From Nitrosopumilaceae archaeon (GTDB lineage Archaea; Thermoproteota; Nitrososphaeria; Nitrososphaerales; Nitrosopumilaceae): 64,000 bases of DNA. The number at the start of each line of letters is the position of its first letter. Position 1 is the stretch's first letter. The position numbers were made by a program, and so were the translations under genes. This document shows, piece by piece, positions 18,803-55,149 of this stretch. The stretch is from NCBI GenBank assembly GCA_035631875.1, contig DASQHX010000009.1, forward strand, positions 66,691 to 130,690, written 5' to 3'. The notes under the pieces are model-generated. The model worked only from the letters and a program-made list of their open reading frames with translations, did no database searches and was not told the DNA's origin.

Positions 18803-18809
18803 TTATATT
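18801..18809 (+). promoter_or_regulatory. TATA box of tRNA-Gln
   Basis: AATTATATT is centred 30 bases before the 5' end of the tRNA and overlaps the stop codon of the upstream gene. Confidence 0.4.
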
Positions 18810-18852
18810 CTCAGGTATTCCAAGTCGTGTCGGTAGCCCGATAGTCTAGTGG

Positions 18853-18868
18853 CCAAACAAATTTTGGG
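18853..18868 (+). other. Predicted non-canonical intron in the tRNA-Gln D loop
   Basis: The 16-base insertion lies between G18852 and T18869. Its ends CCAAA and TTTGG can form a five-pair hairpin, consistent with a bulge-helix-bulge splice substrate. Shifting the boundaries by one base (18852-18867) gives the same mature product. Removing it restores a standard D arm. Confidence 0.65.
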
Positions 18869-18888
18869 TTAGGGATTCCAGGCTCTGG

Positions 18889-18903
18889 ATCTTACGAGAG
18901 GAA
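18889..18903 (+). other. Predicted canonical intron in tRNA-Gln after position 37
   Basis: This 15-base insertion follows the base 3' of the anticodon, the canonical archaeal position 37/38. CTCT (18883-18886) can pair with AGAG (18897-18900), giving a relaxed bulge-helix-bulge structure on top of the anticodon stem. Confidence 0.75.
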
Positions 18904-18965
18904 ACCTGGGGACGGCAGTTCGAATCTGCCTCGGGCTACTTTATCTTTGATAAAATTATAATTGC

Positions 18966-54972: not shown

Positions 54973-55064
54973 TAAAAATTAGATTTAATTTCATTTGTTA
55001 AGATCCAATATCTACTACTTTTATCAAGTAAGTCAAATTTGATTTGTTTAAAAAAATTTTCAAG

Positions 55065-55149
55065 TGCGGGAGAAGGGATTTGAACCCTCGAAATCCTAAG
55101 ATACTAGCCCCTCAAGCTAGCGCCTTTGGCCAGGCTGGGCGACTCCCGC
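55065..55149 (-). tRNA. trnL-GAG: tRNA-Leu (GAG)
   Basis: The reverse strand gives acceptor GCGGGAG / CTCCCGC with discriminator A. The D arm is GCC-rich, the anticodon stem CTAGC/GCTAG has loop TTGAGGG (anticodon GAG), there is a long class II variable arm of about 14 bases and the T arm is GAGGG-TTCAAAT-CCCTT. It is 85 bases long, has no intron, and CCA is not encoded. Confidence 0.93.

Follow-up and report, generated by a model that had tools for sequence, protein, structure and literature searches.

The window analysed here (64,000 nucleotides; G000:C9:66691-130690) comes from the genome of an ammonia-oxidising archaeon of the Nitrosopumilaceae, which spans 1.76 Mb and is rated 99.99% complete. 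At positions 18835-18938 it contains what reads as a working, single-copy gene for tRNA-Gln(CTG) that carries two short introns; the D-loop intron, which is the unusual one, is on the sequence evidence real. A functional single-copy gene with two bulge-helix-bulge introns, which would be cut by an alpha-beta endonuclease to give a 73-base tRNA, is the reading we favour, with a probability of about 0.95. The ribosomal-protein block of this genome is closest to those of Nitrosopumilales archaeon PowLak16_MAG10 and Nitrosotalea-like genomes. The covariance model search proposed with the original prediction recovered the gene: the Rfam tRNA model, run on the full genome, scored it at 41.6 bits despite its 31 extra bases (C9:85525-85628, equivalent to 18835-18938 of the window). 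The gene was not reported by ARAGORN or by a fast Rfam scan of the window, presumably on account of those 31 bases, and the sole tRNA that these programs reported in the window was a tRNA-Leu at 55064-55149. Annotations relying on ARAGORN would wrongly report this genome as being without tRNA-Gln(CTG), and automatic annotation may wrongly omit it throughout the Nitrosopumilaceae; the likely splice sites of an intron in the D loop, overlooked by common tRNA finders, are now fixed.

The 31-base excess that had been claimed was confirmed, and removal of both inserts gives a 73-base cloverleaf with acceptor AGCCCGA/TCGGGCT, T arm GGCAG-TTCGAAT-CTGCC and anticodon CTG; the spliced form computed in this way carries A14, GG18-19, A21, U33 and TTC. 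The gene adjoins the uS7 gene, is flanked by the same neighbours in relatives, and has a AATAATTATATTCT-like block at about the same upstream distance in nearly all Nitrosopumilaceae loci. If the locus were a pseudogene, with tRNA-Gln(CTG) supplied by another gene, its neglect by standard tools would be unsurprising, but the Rfam search that served as tRNA census found no second tRNA-Gln(CTG), intron-free or other, in this near-complete genome. The intron-free copy that had been named as a possible refutation was thus looked for and not found there, the promoter block is conserved, and the exon stems are intact and conserved across the family, leaving the pseudogene an exceedingly improbable reading. 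The features of the working gene that we propose are listed in Table 1.

Table 1. Features of the tRNA-Gln(CTG) locus, in window positions.
Feature	Position	Strand	Basis or remark
TATA-box-like element TTATATTC	18803..18810	+	25-32 bases upstream of the tRNA
tRNA-Gln(CTG) precursor gene	18835..18938	+	104 bases; mature form 73 bases
Central-helix 5' strand GGCC, exon (D loop)	18851..18854	+	pairs with 18867-18870
5' three-base bulge AAA, predicted cut after AA	18855..18857	+	sequence; the intron begins at 18857
Intron 1 (at 21/22, where the D loop ends), 16 bases	18857..18872	+	register scan, A21, unguided enumeration
Intron-internal stem, CAA (18858-18860) with TTG (18864-18866), 3-base loop	18858..18866	+	
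Central-helix 3' strand GGTT, intron	18867..18870	+	pairs with 18851-18854
3' three-base bulge AGG, predicted cut after AG	18871..18873	+	sequence register
Anticodon CTG	18885..18887	+	position in cloverleaf
Intron 2, 15 bases, canonical 37/38 site	18889..18903	+	in relatives' anticodon-loop regions

Several registers are possible for the removal of 16 D-loop bases, and both 18853-18868, the boundaries originally predicted, and 18857-18872 leave a 73-mer. The location of the intron in the D loop and its length of 16 bases held, while its boundaries proved to be four bases off: of the two registers compared, only 18857-18872 restores both the conserved A21 and a bulge-helix-bulge motif. Homologues were collected from the same locus in named genomes and from further genomes of the family and class, giving 118 fetched loci that represent 63 distinct genes with a D-loop insert. 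At register 18857-18872 (shift 0), 99.2% of cells pair and all four central pairs form in 61 of the 63 distinct genes; position 21, which ends the exon, is A throughout, the last intron base is G, A or T among relatives, and the mature D loop is AGYGGYCAA in nearly all genes. The same form is seen in the mature D loop of tRNA-Gln(TTG) from the same genome, AGCGGTCAA. An intron at 18853-18868, recognised via its own CCAAA/TTTGG hairpin, would likewise leave a 73-mer, and this hairpin does belong to the minimum-energy fold of the window gene; at that register (shift -4), however, 62% of cells pair, none of the 63 distinct genes forms the four central pairs, and position 21, almost universally A, becomes variable (G, A, T). 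The hairpin, which had been put forward as the self-pairing of the insert, breaks A21 and is not the conserved structure, being absent from other relatives (for example CCAAATTAATTCAAGG in L058), and we consider this register very improbable. When every pair of introns offering a splice motif was enumerated without guidance, 18857-18872 and 18889-18903 were the two returned (index 22-38, 54-69).

The 118 fetched loci (63 distinct genes) share the position of the D-loop insert, and its pairs covary, for which reason it is judged, from these alignments, not to be a chance feature. In the pair count, each distinct segment pairs 18851-18854 with 18867-18870, GGCC being matched with GGUU, GGCU, GGCC or GGUC, and GGUC with GAUC, GACU, GGCU, GGCC or GAUU; C at position 20 is never opposite A, and this position shows C-G/U-A covariation. 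Over a set of 30 distinct segments of fixed length, the paired cells amount to 97.6%, compared with 81.7% when shuffled, and both-side changes number 43 cells against 12.2. The covariation score was 0.698 against 0.365 shuffled and was reached by 0 of 500 shuffles, which ignore relatedness and do not amount to probabilities; slid versions, which keep relatedness and agree, all scored 0.29 or less. For the internal stem, 130 of 135 pairs form against 89.7 shuffled, each of the three pairs shows both-side changes, and relatives have the variants CAA/TTG, TAA/TTA, TGA/TCA, CTC/GAG, TGG/CCA and CAG/CTG. The structure was also used to pick the register, which biases these figures in its favour, and three supports for the register are independent of structure: A21, the intron-free genes and the D loop of tRNA-Gln(TTG). 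In two loci from the 0.8-Mb genomes of genus g5 (L193, L202), the 21/22 intron has only 11 bases, three central pairs and no internal stem.

The two three-base bulges fit the sequence register, with a predicted cut after the second base of each. The outer exon-exon helix of the motif, read from the sequence, is weak: Y16-G23 and A14-U25 can pair, and G15 faces A24. Because of this weakness, the motif appears to fit the relaxed HBh' type better than the strict hBHBh' type, by the definitions that PMC6379350 quotes. For the 21/22 intron, a strict motif whose outer helix is complete was considered and rejected, as the D-loop bases beside the bulge pair incompletely. In the window gene the splice-motif fold lies 1.7 kcal/mol above the minimum-energy fold, with a mean central-helix pair probability of 0.18; among 58 distinct genes it has the lowest energy in 28 and comes within 1 kcal/mol of the lowest in 42. 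Retention of the insert in a mature tRNA with a long D loop is also very unlikely: the covariation follows the splice motif, and the insert varies from 11 to 22 bases and changes freely in sequence while its pairing is kept. It is moreover exactly absent from several Nitrosopumilus lineages, and a suitable endonuclease is encoded.

Each of the 51 distinct anticodon-loop regions that were parsed from relatives contains the second intron, at 37/38, and the mature loop CTCTGGA is constant among them; in the window gene, shifting this intron by one base leaves the mature sequence identical. If standard three-base bulges are assumed, a single mismatch, at C34, interrupts its central helix in 41 of the 51 regions, whereas the 21/22 helix pairs fully, so it is the intron at the canonical site that has the more relaxed central helix. 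The original prediction of two introns in tRNA-Gln(CTG), at the canonical site and in the D loop, was in this way borne out by the cloverleaf, the conserved position and the covariation.

Splicing of this kind had been expected to require an endonuclease of relaxed specificity, and genes matching that type are encoded in the genome. Two EndA-type genes were found (L144 and L145), with PF01974 and PF02778 domains above cut-off. The 178-aa product is closest to the catalytic subunits of solved crenarchaeal enzymes (2cv8; Aeropyrum 3p1z and 3ajv), and alignments to solved structures show that this alpha subunit keeps Y116, H124 and K155; in its loop, GYYGKPVGIAKPKP, K35 aligns gap-free with position 44 (K44) of A. 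pernix 3p1z, the lysine that confers broad specificity on A. pernix EndA (PMC6379350). The 189-aa beta subunit is without the catalytic His (Ala in alignment with 1a79). By homology, the genome is predicted to encode a two-subunit splicing endonuclease of the broad-specificity type, and Thaumarchaeota are recorded with the alpha-beta type and many unusual tRNA introns (PMC4090602). The (alpha-beta)2 enzyme of A. pernix (3p1z, 3ajv; PMC6379350) likewise has two subunits, and its catalytic Tyr/His/Lys and loop lysine are aligned in the predicted alpha subunit of the present genome, but it belongs to a different lineage.

From the gene, the observed intron positions and covariation, and the two encoded subunits, we infer transcription, cutting, joining and an order of removal. 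The pre-tRNA would be transcribed from its own TATA-box promoter, and in the precursor the D-loop GGCC would pair with a GGUU that lies close to the 3' end of the 21/22 intron; this would leave the two bulges in which the endonuclease would cut, as it would in the relaxed 37/38 motif. A ligase would then join the exons into the 73-base tRNA, with D loop AGUGGCCAA and a predicted 21/22 exon junction of ...AGTGGCCAA to GGAT...

The rarity implied for the D-loop intron was overstated, as the 21/22 intron is common to most Nitrosopumilaceae and to a sister family. It was found in the fetched Nitrosotalea loci, including the N. devanaterra gene (L081), in those of Nitrosotenuis and Nitrosarchaeum, and also in many of those from Nitrosopumilus. 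Group f3 (L212-L216, L218), which from its placement is probably Nitrososphaeraceae, has it in all six parsed genes; five of these (L212-L215, L218) have a third intron at 10/11, giving introns at 10/11, 21/22 and 37/38, with four central pairs for each non-canonical intron in the best parse. Families f8, f9, f10 and f12 of the class showed no 21/22 intron in the genes that were read. In f2 and f5 (L210, L217), tRNA-Gln(CTG) is also without it but has other extra sequence between its D and anticodon arms, which may be an intron near 25/26. The 21/22 intron is probably as old as the split between Nitrosopumilaceae and the sister family.

Within Nitrosopumilaceae, the loci lacking the 21/22 intron are of Nitrosopumilus type, with an exact gap (AGYGGTCAAGGAT) and the 37/38 intron retained; the loci without the intron make up 35 rows, some of them duplicated between collections. 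On a tree of the KH-S12-S7 neighbour block, the intron presence label needs at least four changes. Nitrosopumilus introns end in GATCAA after exon GGTCAA, which places a TCAA repeat at both ends, and a deletion between these repeats would remove exactly the 21/22 intron, as suggested by this one clade. A speculative history, which we think improbable as a whole, is that the intron has been kept since before the family split as a help to the tRNA (for example in ordering modification or in quality control) and has been lost by TCAA-repeat deletion; loss by the copying back of a spliced tRNA is set aside here because the adjacent 37/38 intron always stays. With an old non-canonical intron that several lineages lack exactly, next to a canonical one that is never lost, the locus makes a clean test case for the disappearance of archaeal tRNA introns. 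One tRNA-Gln copy (L054, G096:C61) is without 14 bases between GGATCT-like repeats and has most of its anticodon arm gone; it is either a broken gene or an assembly error.

That Thaumarchaeota have multiple non-canonical tRNA introns, as had been stated, is published (PMC8450103, PMC4090602): tRNAscan-SE 2.0 has a Thaumarchaeota-specific model for them, and 107 were reported in Thaumarchaeota genomes (PMC8450103). The introns described there share the short length, the sites away from 37/38, the bulge-helix-bulge motif and often more than one intron per gene, with no essential difference from the present case. The N. devanaterra genome paper mentions putative introns in various tRNAs (PMC4836417). 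D-arm introns and several introns per gene are likewise known from the multi-intron tRNAs of Thermoproteales and Caldiarchaeum subterraneum (PMC4033280, PMC3293823), but these concern other lineages and tRNA species, and the present data give no sign of the mobile-element gain proposed for Caldiarchaeum. Our literature search found nothing on the exact 21/22 intron of Gln(CTG), which may already be listed in GtRNAdb. It is a real new example of a published phenomenon, ordinary for its lineage.

Other intron-bearing tRNAs of the genome were parsed automatically, with clear results for Gln(TTG), Glu(TTC) and the two introns of Leu(TAA), ambiguous ones for initiator Met, Asp and Trp, and a near tie for Arg(CCT). 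The 10/11 intron of tRNA-Gln(TTG) (L152, G000:C9:268240-268500) is 17 bases long and its central helix is perfect, with four pairs, so both Gln tRNAs carry non-canonical D-arm introns. tRNA-Leu(TAA) (L159, G000:C11:209837-210136), with a D-arm and a 37/38 intron, appears to be the second two-intron gene of the genome. Intron-like extra D-loop sequence with ambiguous boundaries was seen in tRNA-Arg(CCT), initiator Met and Asp(GTC) (L154, L157 and L158; G000), and tRNA-Glu(TTC) (L156, G000:C11:172626-172900) has a 16-base T-arm insert that is probably an intron.
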